Of a stretch of DNA of 64,000 nucleotides, positions 20,152-27,499 are shown one piece after another. The stretch is from assembly GCF_900198195.1 (NCBI RefSeq), contig NZ_LT899436.1, positions 3,191,001 through 3,255,000 on the forward strand, written 5' to 3'. A program made the position numbers and the translations under genes. A model generated the notes under the pieces. The model saw only the letters and a list, made by a program, of their open reading frames with translations, was not told the origin of the DNA and ran no database searches. Positions within the stretch are counted from its first letter, which is position 1. Every line of letters starts with the position of its first letter. The stretch comes from Tenacibaculum jejuense (GTDB taxonomy: Bacteria; Bacteroidota; Bacteroidia; Flavobacteriales; Flavobacteriaceae).

Positions 20152-23100
20152 CTACTCCACAATCCCTTCTCCTTCGAGATATAAATCTTCTAATTGTTGT
20201 TTAATTTCATCTGAAGGTTCTTGCCACATACCACGCTGAATTGCTTCTAATAAACGTTCACTCATGTCTTTTAAAGCCCACGGATTGTTGTCTTTTATGA
20301 AAGCTTTATTTTTCTCGTCTAATAAATAACTTTCTGTGATACCTTCATACATAAAATCATCAATCAAGTTTGTAGTAGCATCGTAAGCAAATAAATAATC
20401 TAATGTTGCCGCCATTTCAAAAGCTCCTTTATATCCATGACGCTGTACACCTGCAATCCATTTTGGATTTATCACTCTTGATCGATATACTTTTAACAAC
20501 TCTTCTTTTAAGGTTTTTACTTTTGGGGTTTCTGGTCGAGAATGATCTCCAAAATATACTTCAGCTTCACTTCCTTTTACAGAAGCAACAGCATTTGCTA
20601 ATCCACCTTGGAATTGATAATAATCATCACTATCTAAAATATCGTGTTCTCTATTATCCTGATTATGCATTACAATTTGCATCGCTTGCAATCTGTTTGT
20701 AAATGATTCGTGTGCAGAAACACCTTTTTTAGAACTTCCATAAGCATAACCACTCCAATTGATATATACTTTGGCTAAATCTTCTTGTGTTTCCCAATTT
20801 TTCTCATCAATTACAGCTTGTAAACCTGCGCCATACGCACCTGGTTTAGATCCGAAAACTCTGTATAAAGCACGTTGTTTAGCTTCTTCTTGAGGTAAAC
20901 CTTTAGCTTTCCAATCTTTTGTTTCTTCTAAAAATCGTTTACGAATCGGATTTTCCCCTAAAGATTCATCTAACCCAGCAACTCTAGCTATAGCAGTATT
21001 GAATAAATTAATTACATCTGGAAAAGCATCTCTAAAAAAACCAGAAATACGTAACGTAACATCTACTCTTGGTCGTTGTAATTTCAGTAATGGAATTACT
21101 TCAAAATCGCTTACTCTTCTATTGGCATTTTTCCAAATTGGTTTTACTCCCATTAAGGCAAATGCTTGAGCAATATCATCCCCTCCTGTTCGCATTGTTG
21201 AGGTTCCCCAAACAGAAATCCCAATAGTTTCTGGATAATCTCCATGTTCTTGGATGTAACGATCTATAATTAGTTTTGCACTCTTTTCTCCTAAACGAAA
21301 AGCAGTTTCGGTAGGAATTGTTCGAACATCAACTGAATAAAAATTACGACCTGTTGGTAATAAATCTACACGTCCTCTTGTTGGAGCTCCAGACGGACCA
21401 GAAGGAACGTATGCTCCGTTCAATCCTTCTAATAAATTTGTAATTTCTTCAGTTGTGTTGTGTACAGCAACTAAGGTTTTATGTTTTATCAGTGCTAAAA
21501 CTTCATTTAGTTTTGGATAAGCTTCAGATAAAAAGTTTTCATCTAAAAATTGTATCAATTGTTGTTTTGCTATAGATTCTAATTGCTCAACAACTTGACC
21601 TACAGTTTTACAATCTTTTTCTCCAATCTTTATTTCTAACTTTTCAGCATAATCTAATGCTAAAATATTTTGTTCAATTCCAAGATCTTCGGCTAAAACT
21701 TGTGTAATTCCTTTTTGCTCATAAGTTGGCATTCTGTGTAAAGCAATTAATAAATCGATTAATTGTTCATCTACAGGAGCTTTTCCGAAAATATGCAAGC
21801 CATCTCGAATTTGTGCTTCTTTAAGTTCACATAGATATCCATCTAATTTTACCAAAAGTTCATCTACATCATCCGAAATAATTCCTAAATCAACGTTCAG
21901 TTTTGTTTCTTTAACCAAATTGGCAATTTCACACTCTAAAGCTTTTGATCGTTTCGGATCTAAATTTGAAGCTTCATAATATTCATCAACTAAATGCTCT
22001 AGTTTCATTAAACTTCCATAACTCTCCGCTCGAGTCATCGGTGGAATTAAATGATCTATAATTACCGCTTGATTTCTTCGTTTTGCTTGTGTTCCTTCTC
22101 CTGGATCGTTGATGATAAACGGATAAAAATGTGGTAACGCATCGAACAACATCGCGGGAAAACAAGTTTCTGGATCTAAAGACACACTTTTTCCTGGTAA
22201 CCATTCTAAGTTTCCGTGTTTTCCTAAATGAATTACAGCATCTGCTTGATATGTATCTTGTAACCAGAAATAATAGGCCAAATATTGATATGTTGGCGCT
22301 AAATCTGGAGAGTGATAAATTGCTTGTGGATCTTGATTATAACCTCTGGAAGGTTGAATACTCACAAAAACATTTCCTAATAAAAATCCAGAAACGATAA
22401 AACCTTCTTCTGTGAAATAAGGATCATTATCTGGAGTTCCCCATTGTTCAATTATCTTTTCTTGTAACGTTTTTGAAATAGTATCAAATCGTTTTTTAAA
22501 ATCATATAAACTATATAATATCGCATGAGGACGAGTTTGCGTTGTACTAATATCATTGGTTGTAACTTGTGTAATCCAATGCATTAATTCTGTTCCAGAT
22601 TGCGGTAATTGTTCTCCTAAATTATAATTTGCTTCTTGTAATGCGTTTAATAAAACGGTACAACTTGCTGGCGTATCTAATCCTACTCCATTAGCCAGTC
22701 GACTATCTTTATTGGGATAGTTAGGTAAAATAACAGCTACGCGTTTTTCTTCATTTTTCTTTTCCTGTAATCTAATCCAGTTTTTTGCCAATCTTGCCAT
22801 GAATTCACAAGCTGGTTCGTGAGCTTCATATTTTACAATTGTACTATCGGTAAGTTCGTCTTTTTGAACTTCTTTTTTAAAAGATACTGCTCTACCTATA
22901 ATTCTTCCATCAATTTCTGGTAAAGCTACATTCATAGCAATATCTGTAGGCGGAAGACCAAACATACCTTCTTCCCAAACTGTTTTATTTGTTGTTGAAA
23001 AAATAGCTTGTAAAACAGGAATTCCTAATCTATCAAAAATAAAATCTGTAGTATCAGAAGATTTAATTGTAAATCCTGTTGTATTAATTATGGCTGCTAT

Positions 23101-23898
23101 TTTTCTAGTGCCTGAATTTGTCATTAGTTTTTCAAGATTCACCAACGTATCAGGATCTCTCAAATTATTTGCAAAAGCTACAACAGGCTGTATGCCTTGA
23201 TCTAATAAAGATCGACTTAAAACTTCTAAAGGTTCTAAGTTATTTGCTAAGAAATGCGTTCTATATGCTAATAAAATTGTTGTTGATTGATTATGATCTA
23301 AACTTGAATCTAATTCTTCTTGTGTAACAATTCCGTTTTCAAATGTATATAGAAACAAATCATCTATTTGTTCTGCTGAAACTACCTCAACAGTTTGATT
23401 GAAAAAATTCTTACGGATATAATTCAAAAAGTTAATCGCATTTGCTTTTCCTCCTTGTTGCAAATATTGTCTGCAATGATGAACCGTTTGTAATGGCACA
23501 GAAGACAACTTCATCAATTCGTAATCGGGTTCATGAGCGGGAATAAAAAGCAACACACAATTGGTTTCTTCTTGCAATTCAACTAACGATTCAACTAAAT
23601 ATTTATAATAGCTTATTCCGCCTAAAAGACTACAAACAATAACTTTTGCTTTTTCTAAAACATCTTCTACATAATTATCTATCGTCAATTCTTGTTTTAG
23701 ATATACCAAATTGGTCATGCGTAAACTTGGCAGTGTATCACTTTCTTGAGTATAAAGTGTTCTATAAGATTCATTTACCGTGTGTATTTCGGTATCGCCT
23801 GCACTTAAAAAAACAATATCACCTGGTTTTTGTTCAATATAAAAAACTCCATCATCATCTGGATTCCAACCTCCAGGTATTGTTGCTATTAAATGCAT
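20152..23898 (-). CDS. cobN: cobaltochelatase large subunit CobN
   Basis: A 1248-residue CobN/Mg-chelatase H-like protein, full length for the family. It holds the corrin and catalyses ATP-driven cobalt insertion together with an AAA+/VWA partner. Visible family marks: the QPSRGYNQDP and DAVIHLGKHGNLEWLPGK segments, LGDPLPH-type DALPHFYPFIINDPGEG, YVPSGPSGAPTRGRVDLLPTGRNFYSVD, and a C-terminal AGVQRHGYKGAFEM. It is the last cob gene of the leftward operon; its predicted partner ChlID lies two genes upstream. Its start is 59 bases after the cbiA-RAYT stop. Confidence 0.95.
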   Translation of the reverse strand: MHLIATIPGGWNPDDDGVFYIEQKPGDIVFLSAGDTEIHTVNESYRTLYTQESDTLPSLRMTNLVYLKQELTIDNYVEDVLEKAKVIVCSLLGGISYYKYLVESLVELQEETNCVLLFIPAHEPDYELMKLSSVPLQTVHHCRQYLQQGGKANAINFLNYIRKNFFNQTVEVVSAEQIDDLFLYTFENGIVTQEELDSSLDHNQSTTILLAYRTHFLANNLEPLEVLSRSLLDQGIQPVVAFANNLRDPDTLVNLEKLMTNSGTRKIAAIINTTGFTIKSSDTTDFIFDRLGIPVLQAIFSTTNKTVWEEGMFGLPPTDIAMNVALPEIDGRIIGRAVSFKKEVQKDELTDSTIVKYEAHEPACEFMARLAKNWIRLQEKKNEEKRVAVILPNYPNKDSRLANGVGLDTPASCTVLLNALQEANYNLGEQLPQSGTELMHWITQVTTNDISTTQTRPHAILYSLYDFKKRFDTISKTLQEKIIEQWGTPDNDPYFTEEGFIVSGFLLGNVFVSIQPSRGYNQDPQAIYHSPDLAPTYQYLAYYFWLQDTYQADAVIHLGKHGNLEWLPGKSVSLDPETCFPAMLFDALPHFYPFIINDPGEGTQAKRRNQAVIIDHLIPPMTRAESYGSLMKLEHLVDEYYEASNLDPKRSKALECEIANLVKETKLNVDLGIISDDVDELLVKLDGYLCELKEAQIRDGLHIFGKAPVDEQLIDLLIALHRMPTYEQKGITQVLAEDLGIEQNILALDYAEKLEIKIGEKDCKTVGQVVEQLESIAKQQLIQFLDENFLSEAYPKLNEVLALIKHKTLVAVHNTTEEITNLLEGLNGAYVPSGPSGAPTRGRVDLLPTGRNFYSVDVRTIPTETAFRLGEKSAKLIIDRYIQEHGDYPETIGISVWGTSTMRTGGDDIAQAFALMGVKPIWKNANRRVSDFEVIPLLKLQRPRVDVTLRISGFFRDAFPDVINLFNTAIARVAGLDESLGENPIRKRFLEETKDWKAKGLPQEEAKQRALYRVFGSKPGAYGAGLQAVIDEKNWETQEDLAKVYINWSGYAYGSSKKGVSAHESFTNRLQAMQIVMHNQDNREHDILDSDDYYQFQGGLANAVASVKGSEAEVYFGDHSRPETPKVKTLKEELLKVYRSRVINPKWIAGVQRHGYKGAFEMAATLDYLFAYDATTNLIDDFMYEGITESYLLDEKNKAFIKDNNPWALKDMSERLLEAIQRGMWQEPSDEIKQQLEDLYLEGEGIVE

Positions 23899-23948: not shown

Positions 23949-23970
23949 CCAAGGGGATTAATCCCCTTGG
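23949..23970. repeat. REP-like palindrome 4, at the cbiA-RAYT stop codon
   Basis: A perfect 22-base palindrome with core AAGGGGATTAATCCCCTT. The stop codon of the fusion gene lies exactly at its centre (23958-23960). GGTAACC precedes it in the coding direction. Same family as the three palindromes inside the gene. Confidence 0.85.
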
Positions 23971-25838
23971 TTACCTTGAGTGTGAAGTGACTCAATGAAT
24001 TCTCTCATTTCCTTACCCCAACGCGCTTCGTGTTTGTAATGATTATTTTTGATATAATTCGTGACTCTTTCTATTGAACCATCCGTTGCAGATATTTTCT
24101 TTCTATGAAATTTCTGTACCCAAACTTTCTGTTTTCCTTTTTCCCATTCTTTAAATCGCTGGAATTTATACGAAGTATATCCTTTTATATTTTTTATCTG
24201 AGTTGTCAACTCTTCTTTGTTTTCTACCTTCAGTAAAATATGAATATGGTCAGGTAAAACATTAAAACAAACTACATCTATATCATATCTTTTAAACGCT
24301 TTTTTGAATAAACTCATCATTTTTTCTAAATCATCTTCTTCAAAAATTAAAGCATCTAAATTTCTTATAAAACTAGAGGTATTATATTTTACCATTCTAT
24401 CTGAAATTCGAGATTTTGCTGTCGCAAAGGTTACAAAGTAATATTCTTTATCAAGGGGTTTTCCAATGGGATTAATCCCATTGAGTCTAGTCAACCAATT
24501 AAAGTTTCCTGCTCCCCAGTACAAATGGATGTAACTTGCCATTACATTTTTGTATGAAAATACTTTAGTTGCTATTTCTTTTTCTCTTGCTGTATAAACT
24601 TTTGCTATAGAATCGTATTGATCATGAATCATCGAGGAATAATGAAATTCATGTCCCCAAATCGTTTCGTCTTCGAAAACAACTTTTCTATATCCTAAAT
24701 GTAATTTCTTTTGCTCCATCGTTGTACTAAAATTAAAAACTCCCGCCATGTTAAAAGCAATTCCATCAGCATTAATAATTTGATTTCCTAAGTACATCAT
24801 TCCTCCACATTCTGCTAGAATCTTAATTCCATCTTCAGCTGCGTTTTTAATAGCTGTTTTCATTTCAGCATTCGAACTTAACTGTTCTAAATATAATTCT
24901 GGATACCCTCCTGCTAAATAAATAATATCAGCATCAGGTAACTTTGTATCGTGGATTGGACTAAAAAACGTTACATCGCCTAACTGCTTTAAGTAGGCTA
25001 AGTTTTCAACATAAGTAAACGTGAAGGCTTCATCTTTAGCTACAGCTATTTTTAATTTAGTTTTTATTTTCTTGTGAAAGCCAATGGGATTAATCACACT
25101 GGTAATAGCTGTTTCTTTTTTTGCAAGGAGATGAATCTCCTTGGTAACATCATCTATTTCTGTGTTTTTAATCGAAGTTGCAACATTTAAAAGTTCTTTT
25201 ATATTAGCATGTGTACCAATATGACTTGCTGCGTTTTCTATTAACTCTTCGAATTTATCTTCAATATGTAAACCTAAATGTCTCGAAGGAATTTTAATAT
25301 CGTCGTTTGGAGGAATATATCCTAAAGAAGGTATTCCGACGGTTTCGCAAGCTTCTTTTAAAAACGCATAATGTGATTCTGTTTTCACAAAATTGAACAA
25401 AACTCCTGCTATTTTAACTTCAGGATCAAACGTTTTTAATCCATATAAAATAGGAGCAATGGTATATGCCATTGCTTTAGCATTCACTACTAAAACAACT
25501 GGAATATTAAGTTTCTTTGCCAATTCAGCTGAACTTCCTTGATCTTTAACTGCTCCATCAAATAATCCCATTACACCTTCTACAATAGAAATATCAGCTT
25601 CATTAGTATATTTAGTGAATACTTCTTGAATGTGTGTATCTGACATCAATACACTATCTAAGTTGATACTTGGTCTTTTAGCTGCTCTGGAATGATGAAT
25701 TGTATCTATATAATCTGGTCCGCATTTAAAAGTTTGTACTTTATAGTTCTTATTACTAAAGTAACGAGCTAAACCAAGTGTTATCGTTGTTTTTCCAGAA
25801 TTGCTCCAAGGAGCTGCTATTAAAAATGCCTTTGCCAT
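23958..25838 (-). CDS. cbiA: CbiA cobyrinate a,c-diamide synthase fused to RAYT transposase
   Basis: A 626-residue fusion. Residues 1 to about 449 are a complete CbiA, which amidates cobyrinate side chains a and c: P loop APWSNSGKTT (9-18), VEGVMGLFDG, and a glutaminase domain with C344 in AECGGMM and H396 in GHEFHYS, ending SYIHLYWGAGNF as CbiA proteins do. Residues about 462-620 are a Y1 transposase of the REP-associated type: YYFVTFATA start, HUH motif LPDHIHILL (H531, H533), and YIKNNHYKH with likely catalytic Y595. The join, LNGINPIG, is encoded by a palindrome; two further palindromes lie in the CbiA interdomain linker (residues 232-252). CbiA is usually about 430-460 residues, so the C-terminal part is extra. 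Confidence 0.92.
   Translation of the reverse strand: MAKAFLIAAPWSNSGKTTITLGLARYFSNKNYKVQTFKCGPDYIDTIHHSRAAKRPSINLDSVLMSDTHIQEVFTKYTNEADISIVEGVMGLFDGAVKDQGSSAELAKKLNIPVVLVVNAKAMAYTIAPILYGLKTFDPEVKIAGVLFNFVKTESHYAFLKEACETVGIPSLGYIPPNDDIKIPSRHLGLHIEDKFEELIENAASHIGTHANIKELLNVATSIKNTEIDDVTKEIHLLAKKETAITSVINPIGFHKKIKTKLKIAVAKDEAFTFTYVENLAYLKQLGDVTFFSPIHDTKLPDADIIYLAGGYPELYLEQLSSNAEMKTAIKNAAEDGIKILAECGGMMYLGNQIINADGIAFNMAGVFNFSTTMEQKKLHLGYRKVVFEDETIWGHEFHYSSMIHDQYDSIAKVYTAREKEIATKVFSYKNVMASYIHLYWGAGNFNWLTRLNGINPIGKPLDKEYYFVTFATAKSRISDRMVKYNTSSFIRNLDALIFEEDDLEKMMSLFKKAFKRYDIDVVCFNVLPDHIHILLKVENKEELTTQIKNIKGYTSYKFQRFKEWEKGKQKVWVQKFHRKKISATDGSIERVTNYIKNNHYKHEARWGKEMREFIESLHTQGNQGD
24463..24484. repeat. 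REP-like palindrome 3, at the CbiA/RAYT junction
   Basis: Core AATGGGATTAATCCCATT is a perfect palindrome, encoding NGINPI at residues 453-458 between the CbiA end and the transposase start. Confidence 0.85.
25081..25102. repeat. REP-like palindrome 2, in the CbiA linker
   Basis: An imperfect palindrome (two mismatched pairs) around GATTAATC, followed on the + strand by GGTAAT. It encodes SVINPIG at residues 247-253, echoing the INPIG peptide at the fusion junction. Confidence 0.65.
25124..25143. repeat. REP-like palindrome 1, in the CbiA linker
   Basis: CAAGGAGAT and ATCTCCTTG are exact inverted arms around a 2-base centre, followed on the + strand by GGTAAC. It lies 21 bases from palindrome 2, in the same orientation. 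Confidence 0.7.
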
Positions 25839-25840
25839 AA

Positions 25841-27499
25841 TTATAATGATGAAAAAGGTATGTATCGTAAATTTAAAACTTCTGCCAAACGTTTTGCTCT
25901 ACCTAATTTCACAAAACCATTTTCTGTATCTACGATGGTGGTATTTGATAATTTAGACAAATACATTTTGTAATTTTTCACCGCAAAATCAAATGGATTT
26001 TCGTGTCCTGCATTAATCTTTCCATCTGTTAACACAAATAGTTGTACGGTTTTAATATTTATTGATTTCAACAACTCAAATACTTTTGAAAAAGCACTTC
26101 CTAAGTTTGTTTTCCCTCCTGCTCTTAATTGATAACTGACTTCATGTATTCGCTTACTATCTGTAGTAAAATATTGTAAAATTTTTGCTGATGAATTTTC
26201 TAAAACTACAATAGCATATTCTATCTTTTTTGCTGGATAAGAAACTATTGTTTTTTGAACAATTCCTTTAATATACCCTAATTGCTTATCAACTGCCATA
26301 GAAGCACTGGTGTCTAATAAAAAAACAATTTTAGCTGATGCTTTTTCAGTAATTTGTTGATATATCTTAGTAAACTTCTGTGTTACAATATAATTTTTAA
26401 TTGTTTTTACTAAAGCTATACGATCTGCTTCTTTAGCTATATATGGACTCTTTATGAGTTCATTATTTGTTGGTAGTGCTACTACTTTTTTTTTTGAGGC
26501 TTGAGGAATAGAAAATTGCAATCCGTTTTTAATCTGTTCTGGAAGTTGAAACGAATTTGATCCTTGTTGAGGTTCTGTATTTTCTTTCTTCTCTTCTTCT
26601 TTTGAATTTTGCTCAGTTGAATTCTCTTTTTCCTTTGGCGGAGTAAAATCACTACTCCTATGTGCTAAAACAAAAGGTGCTATTTTATATAACATTGCTT
26701 CTGTAGTTTCGCTTTCTCCTAATAAAGCGGCATAAGCTCTAGTAGTTTTTAACAAAAGTATATCTGCTCTTAATCCTTCTACATTGGCTTCAACAGTTAA
26801 TTTAGCAGCTTCATTTTGTACTTTTTCTGATAATACTACATCTACTAATTTATTTTTTGCTGAAAGAACTTCTGCTTTTAATGCTGATTCTTCTTCTTTT
26901 AGTCTTTTATAAAACTCAGTAGTATTCGTATCAAAATTTAAACGTTGTAATGCTATTTTTTTTCGAAGCGTAATATCTTTTGGTGTTGAAATAGCAACAC
27001 TTAATCCGAATCTATCTTTTAGTTGTGGACGTAGTTCTCCTTCTTCAGGATTCATAGTACCAACTAAACAAAATCTGCTGTCTAACCATTCAGAAATTCC
27101 TTCTCTTTCTAAATGATATCCTCCAGATGCAGCAGCATCTAATAACACATCCATTAAATAGTCATTCAACAAGTTGATTTCATCTATATATAAAAATCCT
27201 TGATGTGATTTTGCTAATAAACCTTTATCTACAATAGTTTTTTTCTGATTAATAAGTGCTTCTAAATTTACACTTCCTAATACACGGTCTTCAGTTGCGC
27301 CAATAGGTAAGTTTACAAACGGAAAATCTTCCCCCATTAATTGACTTAATGCTCTAACTGTAGTTGTTTTTCCAGTTCCTTTATCTCCAGTAGCTAAAAC
27401 TCCTCCAATAGTTGGATCTATTAGATTCAGCAGCAAGCATAATTTAAAATCATCTTGACCGACAATAGCAGTAAATGGAAAATTAATTTTGTTTTGCAT
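25841..27499 (-). CDS. ChlI-ChlD-type chelatase AAA+/VWA subunit
   Basis: A 552-residue fusion of a Mg-chelatase I-like AAA+ ATPase and a D-like von Willebrand A domain. The N-terminal part has Walker A GDKGTGKTT, Walker B LYIDEINLL, and the ChlI insert FCLVGTMNPEEGELRP. A Glu/Ser/Pro-rich linker (about 285-325) leads to the VWA domain (about 385-552) with MIDAS DTSAS and the TDGKIN loop. It would supply the motor for CobN in cobalt insertion. It starts 1 base after the permease gene and ends 2 bases before cbiA, so it is firmly in the operon. Confidence 0.9.
   Translation of the reverse strand: MQNKINFPFTAIVGQDDFKLCLLLNLIDPTIGGVLATGDKGTGKTTTVRALSQLMGEDFPFVNLPIGATEDRVLGSVNLEALINQKKTIVDKGLLAKSHQGFLYIDEINLLNDYLMDVLLDAAASGGYHLEREGISEWLDSRFCLVGTMNPEEGELRPQLKDRFGLSVAISTPKDITLRKKIALQRLNFDTNTTEFYKRLKEEESALKAEVLSAKNKLVDVVLSEKVQNEAAKLTVEANVEGLRADILLLKTTRAYAALLGESETTEAMLYKIAPFVLAHRSSDFTPPKEKENSTEQNSKEEEKKENTEPQQGSNSFQLPEQIKNGLQFSIPQASKKKVVALPTNNELIKSPYIAKEADRIALVKTIKNYIVTQKFTKIYQQITEKASAKIVFLLDTSASMAVDKQLGYIKGIVQKTIVSYPAKKIEYAIVVLENSSAKILQYFTTDSKRIHEVSYQLRAGGKTNLGSAFSKVFELLKSINIKTVQLFVLTDGKINAGHENPFDFAVKNYKMYLSKLSNTTIVDTENGFVKLGRAKRLAEVLNLRYIPFSSL

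Follow-up and report, generated by a model that had tools for sequence, protein, structure and literature searches.

A RAYT-like HUH domain with REP-like hairpins carried in frame by the cobyrinate a,c-diamide synthase gene of Tenacibaculum jejuense, and its relatives inside restriction-modification enzymes

Repetitive extragenic palindromic (REP) sequences and the REP-associated tyrosine transposases (RAYTs, or TnpA_REP proteins) are the closest described counterparts of the gene considered here. In PMC6006769, which cites the RAYT groups of Bertels and colleagues, TnpA_REP of the Y1 HUH superfamily forms class 2; its subclass 2.4 has REPs in frame inside the tnpA gene, located between HUH and Tyr, together with NH[IFV]H and YIxNNP motifs, and overlong proteins were left out there, on the view that they were fused genes or annotation errors. 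PMC3733652 describes REPs within genes, among them many DNA repair genes, and Rickettsia palindromic elements in coding genes. The present analysis concerns a 64,000-nucleotide stretch of the Tenacibaculum jejuense genome (contig NZ_LT899436.1, positions 3,191,001 to 3,255,000; hereafter the window), in which the gene for cobyrinate a,c-diamide synthase (cbiA) runs in frame into a RAYT-like Y1/HUH domain accompanied by REP-like hairpins.

The fused gene is a single open reading frame (ORF) of 626 residues (23958..25838, minus strand) with no internal stop codon, as proposed in an initial annotation of the window that described a complete CbiA enzyme joined in frame to a Y1/HUH transposase. In a Pfam scan of the whole product, CbiA scored 64.7 bits and GATase_3 139.4 bits, and the NCBIfam CobB equivalog NF002204 covered residues 3-441 with 468.5 bits against a cut-off of 254. 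The full-length equivalog match and the intact nucleotide-binding and glutamine amidotransferase domains place the N-terminal part in the CbiA family. Y1_Tnp was matched at residues 498-599 with 51.6 bits in the full fusion, and with 55.5 bits when the C-terminal 172 residues were scanned alone (cut-off 23), the profile search that had been suggested as a check; together with the HUH motif and the tyrosine, this match assigns the domain to the Y1 HUH superfamily. The residues singled out in the initial annotation, namely C344 and H396 of CbiA and H531, H533 and Y595 of the transposase part, proved invariant in an alignment of 12 fused proteins. It had also named a stop codon or frameshift near 24480 as grounds for rejection, and the chance that two genes were joined by an error of sequencing, assembly or annotation is practically negligible: the genome is one 4.6 Mb contig with a completeness of 100%, the same fusion occurs in independent assemblies (11 other database proteins), and nothing was found in favour of an artefact. 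A separate RAYT product from an internal ATG start was also considered and rejected, as the stretch from the CbiA end to the RAYT domain contains no Met in seven of the 12 proteins, and no ATG is conserved. The gene probably encodes one bifunctional polypeptide, CbiA with a C-terminal RAYT-like HUH domain that is a predicted endonuclease. The features of the locus are collected in Table 1.

Table 1. Coordinates of the fused gene's features and neighbours in the window, and of three HemF-RAYT frames in other genomes
Feature	Position	Strand	Basis and remarks
CbiA (cobyrinate a,c-diamide synthase) part, residues 1-448	24495..25838	-	Pfam CbiA and GATase_3; NCBIfam CobB equivalog
RAYT-like Y1/HUH domain, residues 466-618	23985..24443	-	Pfam Y1_Tnp
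HUH motif H531-I532-H533	24240..24248	-	conserved without exception in 12/12 fused proteins
Predicted catalytic tyrosine Y595 (YIKNN)	24054..24056	-	conserved without exception in 12/12 fused proteins
Linker palindrome (REP-like), between the two CbiA domains, translated in frame	25124..25143	-	scan; DNA fold -6.7 kcal/mol, z -4.63
Degenerate REP-like palindrome, same CbiA linker, encodes VINPIG	25081..25100	-	direct reading
CbiA-RAYT junction palindrome CAATGGGATTAATCCCATTG, translated NGINPI; putative left cassette end	24464..24483	-	DNA fold -7.2 kcal/mol, z -3.39
3' palindrome CCAAGGGGATTAATCCCCTTGG, includes TAA stop (QGD*); putative right cassette end	23949..23970	-	DNA fold -9.9 kcal/mol, z -3.66
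cobN-like gene, directly downstream of the fused gene	20152..23898	-	ORF list; presumed name
Chelatase-like ORF, other neighbour of the fused gene	25841-27499		presumed name
HemF-RAYT frame, L234	1597-3171	+
HemF-RAYT frame, L235	1619-3184	+
HemF-RAYT frame, L236	555-2114	-

In its Y1_Tnp profile match, its HUH motif with a single Tyr and its flanking palindromes (those at the junction and the 3' end), the domain resembles RAYT/TnpA_REP as presented in PMC6006769. It differs in that the gene stands alone there, whereas here the domain lies within CbiA or restriction-modification (R-M) enzymes; the motifs DHxH, WxQKF and Y..NNHxKH stand against NHxH and YIxNNP of subclass 2.4, and the hairpins lack a GTAG foot. 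No palindrome lies inside the RAYT domain of the window. Across the RAYT domain rows collected, [DN]HxH was present in 89 of 89; a strict Tyr expression matched 59 of 82, the 23 misses being 21 that read Y-x-x-x-N[HR] by eye and two truncated rows. The NCBIfam family for REP-associated tyrosine transposases (NF047646) scored 53.7 bits, below its cut-off of 80, and was still the better of two families matched, the other being IS200/IS605 (NF033573; 43.4 bits, cut-off 55). At the sequence level, the RAYT subfamily profile matches IS200-type transposases and PDB TnpA_REP; its best PDB sequence match is 2xm3 (E 2e-7), which we take to be ISDra2. The domain thus shares with IS200/IS605 TnpA (IS608, ISDra2) the Y1 HUH family and hairpins at both ends, but it falls below the NCBIfam IS200 cut-off and the window genome has no free-standing copy of its subfamily. 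A second, stand-alone RAYT does occur in that genome (L002, 1243-1851, minus strand; about 202 residues), with NHVH and YIHNNP and with other palindrome-like sequences around it. The AlphaFold model of the fusion was weak (mean predicted local distance difference test score, pLDDT, 58.5; linker 224-260 and all of 340-462 below 50), with RAYT blocks in 501-560 at 70-87. A PDB fold search with this model returned no transposase among the 50 matches listed, which fell on the P-loop/CbiA side or on CTP synthase instead, so the fold assignment of the RAYT part rests on sequence profiles.

The hairpins, which the initial annotation had missed, are themselves translated. Twenty candidates came out of a palindrome scan of the window; three of them, in the linker, at the junction and at the 3' end, lie in the fused gene and share one consensus. 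When each DNA fold was compared with 200 shuffles, it beat nearly all of them. At the alignment columns of the degenerate linker copy, P0002/L080 has an intact NGINPIG. Of the three frames of such a palindrome, for example CAAGGGGCTTAAGCCCCTTG, two can be read through (as KGLKPL and RGLSPL) and one meets a stop. The window has both cases: its junction hairpin is read through, its 3' hairpin supplies the stop, and a cassette with these ends would thus add a domain to the gene and end it cleanly. The fused gene of G002 has the same arrangement with different palindrome copies, and among six fused loci read, the 3' hairpin contains the stop in L003, L004 and L082 and comes after it in L080, L081 and L083; that of Flavivirga reads QWG*. 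Eight of the 11 fused relatives have a peptide of the type [KNR]G[LIFMW][KQNSH]P[LI] between the two CbiA domains and 10 have one past the CbiA end; the linkers vary in length and in palindrome peptides, the extreme being a tandem array in P0009 (861 residues). Direct reading gave a hairpin foot of CCAA...TTGG in the cbiA genes and of (A)GACAA...TTGTC(T) in several methylase loci. Over the distinct cores among the free 6-base palindrome cores, complementarity holds for 16 of 21 and 12 of 15 pairs but is complete in only three of seven and two of five cores, a supportive result that is not decisive. Near the fused gene of Flavivirga, an ORF that we presume to be CbiG/CobM-like (L113, 13006-14874, minus strand) has a palindrome-coded C-terminal tail, KSKGFKPLGKKQ. 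Small palindromes translated in frame and tolerated in linkers or loops recall the REPs and Rickettsia palindromic elements of PMC3733652; those are hairpins alone, whereas here a transposase appears to have been inserted together with its hairpins, and its sequence forms a domain of the translated host enzyme.

A protein search with residues 440-626 found 11 further proteins, every one a CbiA-Y1_Tnp fusion; it admitted only lengths of 0.55-1.75 times 626 residues, a range that shuts out stand-alone RAYTs. Where a carrier is named, it is a Tenacibaculum species or Flavivirga aquatica, and in every fused protein the RAYT domain follows the last conserved block of CbiA. The fused gene is present in three of 58 sampled genomes of the genus. 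The count of fusions recommended in the initial annotation came to two (the window's and G162) with a fused-length frame containing RAYT among the 14 of 299 family genomes that have a CbiA match (E <= 1e-40). In a viral contig collection, 128 pattern matches were obtained, none of which was confirmed as a relative by tblastn.

Comparison with unfused genes reveals what appears to be an empty site. In a locus from another genus (L132), CbiA is 93% identical to that of the window, the cassette is absent and the C-terminus reads NWFTKK*. The cobN-like start forms the far boundary of this empty site, and the distance to it from the YIHLYW codons is 60 bp in L132 vs 635 bp in the window. The CbiA linker of L132 is also free of palindromes, and at E <= 0.001 the RAYT profile matched nothing in its genome, which is 99% complete. 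In the CbiA tree, L132 lies inside the clade of fused proteins with a support of 99 (67-88 for its position within the clade); given this nesting, loss is the simplest reading, and the cassette can probably be lost, with operon transfer between genera likely also involved. L133, with a CbiA of 72% identity, is unfused, keeps a linker palindrome and has a tail with an apparent half-palindrome; its tree position is weak (28-29). The suggestion in the initial annotation of an insertion that tolerates host function agrees with these data, in that CbiA is complete and constrained, the RAYT domain follows all of its conserved blocks, and in L132 a cbiA of 93% identity has no cassette.

Relatives of the same subfamily were found inside R-M enzymes. 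A domain-alignment scan of one genome for each of 84,980 species gave 12 loci, comprising four CbiA fusions and eight others; in seven of the eight, RAYT lies in frame within an R-M-type ORF, and in the eighth (L091) the frame is broken in what is apparently the same R-M context. The domain is positioned between an FDWE..FPEVF-like segment and GGFD.VIGNPPY (motif IV) in L084, L088, L089 and L090; L085 has the same left side as these but stops at the contig end, and the cyanobacterial L086 and L087 have the RAYT in a type ISP enzyme at a different insertion place. Pfam was run on L084, L086, L088 and L089 among these loci, and in the four Eco57I-type proteins scanned (L084, L088, L089, L228) the Eco57I domain is split into two stretches. 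A second protein search, seeded with a Chloroflexi methylase and length-restricted so that stand-alone RAYTs could not appear either, yielded 53 proteins, all with Y1_Tnp and an R-M domain (in P0017, P0020 and P0026 the R-M domain listed is the type ISP C-terminal domain only). Palindrome-type peptides lie within about 60 residues of the RAYT domain in 43 of the 51 R-M proteins with a located domain start (N side 14, C side 40), as compared with 13 elsewhere in the 40,628 residues of those proteins. Some database entries are already labelled as methylase-RayT proteins.

The methylases also provide empty sites. Flavobacterial homologues of the left part of the L084 methylase were present in 27 stretches, 25 of them readable, and the gap from CGNSL to NPPY/NPPW is 31 residues in 22 and 43 in one, is occupied by a related RAYT in two (L224, L228) and amounts to 207 in L084. 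By this alignment, the 31-residue homologues are clean empty sites of the L084 insertion. At the same site, the Eco57I-type methylase of L231 (G220) has 12 extra residues (the GTSLRGTKQSAESKQ region), which we presume may be another REP type translated in frame. Since the same RAYT subfamily resides in R-M enzymes of other phyla, a relationship that the initial annotation did not anticipate, the CbiA case is one host in a wider class and not a one-off.

RAYTs of other types were also seen in frame with host enzymes. Three genomes of the same genus have another RAYT type that shares one frame, at the N terminus, with HemF, a second tetrapyrrole enzyme (L234, L235 and L236); coproporphyrinogen III oxidase scored 431-445 bits, and Y1_Tnp scored 26.7 bits in L234, was not listed in L235 and scored 21.0 in L236 (cut-off 23). 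Other types occur in Bacteroidota in frame with a DUF1156 protein (L237), HsdR (L239, L245) and RecG (L244), and with DNA methylase in L241 and, below the cut-off, L240. In-frame RAYTs in DNA-processing genes thus seem to be recurrent.

How far the subfamily is intragenic was assessed by profile searches. The six best matches from 395 Bacteroidota genomes, one of them that of the window, have E <= 1.6e-13 and belong to open frames of 646-1273 residues; the next (2.2e-12) is a stand-alone frame of 150 residues. At E <= 1e-6, the profile finds something in 113 of these genomes, for the most part ordinary superfamily relatives that stand alone. For the Pseudanabaena phylum (292 genomes), the top two matches (E <= 1.2e-62, one from the source of L086) fall in frames of 1278 and 1270 residues, and the remaining matches listed score below 54 bits in frames of 136-224 residues. 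A search with the RAYT domain only found just P0012, one protein among 17 candidates. In the stand-alone L007 and L249, palindromes stand in three places: on the 5' side, at the 3' end and between HUH and Tyr. The embedded L153 also has one in the last of these positions, and the motifs of the three loci read [CG]x?DHxH and Y..[NT]N[R].

In a domain tree of 83 rows (89 less six duplicates), the 13 RAYT rows from CbiA form one clade (support 100/99) that adjoins the methylase-embedded L084/L085 of Algibacter and Crocinitomicaceae (92/89), and host labels require seven changes vs 25.8 in shuffles; the tree has few columns, 36 of 80 inner branches are open and the bootstrap is not fully settled. 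We infer from this arrangement a direction from methylase to CbiA.

Selection on the fused gene was estimated from 15 pairs among six fused genes. The ratio of nonsynonymous to synonymous rates (dN/dS) is 0.085-0.18 for RAYT (12 of 15 pairs computable), 0.03-0.13 for the CbiA N domain (15 pairs), 0.057-0.121 for GATase (8 pairs) and 0.26-1.6 for the linker (14 of 15 pairs computable), with most dS values saturated and only the pair L003-L080 unsaturated in all regions (RAYT 0.10 at dS 0.52). As estimated from these codon comparisons, the RAYT domain is under purifying selection about as strong as that on CbiA. Trees of CbiA and RAYT from the same 12 proteins have five of nine splits in common; the four conflicting RAYT splits are supported by 43-59, and three CbiA-tree splits with a support of 94-99 were not recovered by the RAYT tree. 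There is no well-supported conflict of the RAYT tree with the CbiA tree. A passive relic, in which a RAYT/REP unit once landed downstream of cbiA, the stop was lost and the fusion is inactive and without benefit, would account for the easily tolerated C-terminal position and for a linker and junction free to vary, but it is quite improbable in view of the purifying selection and invariant catalytic residues across synonymous-saturated species, of hairpins kept with different cores, and of HUH in all 13 distinct fused rows, even though broken copies would escape protein searches.

The low dN/dS of RAYT and the invariance of its catalytic residues in all 12 proteins are also what domestication would produce, that is, recruitment of the RAYT by the cell, for example to bind hairpins in the cbiA-cobN mRNA or DNA and regulate the cobalamin operon, for which it would be kept. 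Palindrome counts across genomes, which allowed one mismatch and gave no match with a reversed-pattern control in 13 of 13 genome handles (G068 and G082 being apparently one genome), can in part be read the same way. Two of the three sites in the window genome (G000) and three of the four in G002 lie within the fused gene; G081 and G083 have four each, three of them in or just behind it and the other at a distance of about 5 kb within the surrounding gene neighbourhood, where G084 has a site too. In several carriers, the hairpins stay near the home gene. On the other hand, only three of eight sites in G084 and five of 15 distinct sites in G068 are in or just behind the fused gene; G086 has about 150 sites. 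The cassette is missing from L132 with CbiA intact, and from L133 with the linker palindrome kept; the subfamily resides in unrelated R-M enzymes, where a cobalamin role would be senseless; and mere binding needs no catalytic HUH and Tyr, which are nevertheless retained. The domesticated capture that the initial annotation offered as its other option, while consistent with the purifying selection and the tree comparison, is therefore unlikely.

The explanation that we favour, with somewhat better than even confidence, is that a RAYT/REP element persists as a translated in-frame cassette of host genes. The cassette would consist of the RAYT domain and a hairpin at each end, and would have inserted itself at the 3' end of cbiA in the ancestry of one marine lineage of Flavobacteriaceae, its source most likely being a RAYT already in frame within an R-M methyltransferase. 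The hairpins would act as REP-type sites, at which the HUH domain may nick and join single-stranded DNA, and single hairpins may have been copied into tolerant linkers of the same gene, giving the variable NGINPI/KGFQPL inserts. Translation within a host enzyme would give the element expression and make its loss by frameshifting costly.

Several observations weigh against this explanation, beginning with the saturated dS values and the unrecovered CbiA splits given above. The hairpins read at the cbiA and methylase loci lack the classical REP GTAG/GTGG foot, eight of the 51 R-M proteins have no flanking palindrome-type peptide, and four of the six best Bacteroidota matches (L150, L151, L152, L154) have no exact palindrome of the type in the stretch examined. 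Stand-alone relatives (P0012, L007, L249) exist, and the subfamily is not strictly intragenic; broken copies, as mentioned, would not be seen among proteins. The window genome shows no genome-wide dispersal of palindromes of the kind expected of a RAYT/TnpA_REP system. In a genus-wide count with a slightly different pattern (control 0-2 per strand), similar palindromes were most numerous in G008, G012 and G013, all without this RAYT subfamily, which weighs against a simple reading of dispersal by the RAYT; the fourth-richest genome, G026, contains the stand-alone L007. Similar palindromes are common in genus genomes that lack this RAYT, and we draw no link between the number of palindromes and the fused RAYT. 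G008 has 37 and 39 matches on its two strands, several paired about 100 bp apart, and zero Y1_Tnp matches, and thus presents a REPIN-like array without a visible RAYT.

Inteins are selfish nucleases carried in frame within conserved proteins, with empty alleles in relatives. By analogy only, the cassette shares with them a nuclease-type domain carried in frame by conserved proteins and relatives with empty sites; it differs in that a Pfam scan finds no splicing domain, and the RAYT is apparently kept in the mature protein. A further-reaching proposal, which we put forward tentatively and hold to be less probable than the cassette itself, is that of a separate class of mobile element, comparable to inteins but without splicing, which exists for the most part as a domain translated within host proteins. 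Such an HUH nuclease cassette, with palindrome ends readable in two frames, would enter loops or termini in frame and move between hosts as unrelated as R-M enzymes and CbiA; its ends would spread into the host protein as short peptides, and its loss would leave that protein intact. RAYTs as such and REPs inside ORFs are already known; whole RAYTs as domains of host enzymes were not found described, and a literature search covering sources other than subscription papers and preprints found no description of CbiA-RAYT or methylase-RAYT proteins.

To our knowledge, the field has yet to explain how RAYTs persist vertically for so long with no obvious mobility. Here, a RAYT is physically part of a conserved protein of biosynthesis or defence, natural empty sites and one likely loss are available for comparison, and persistence, hairpin recognition and host cost can thereby each be addressed in one gene. 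Fusions that are dropped from transposase surveys may form a real class, and short peptides in databases, such as KGLKPL, RGLSPL and NGINPI, can be translated DNA hairpins.

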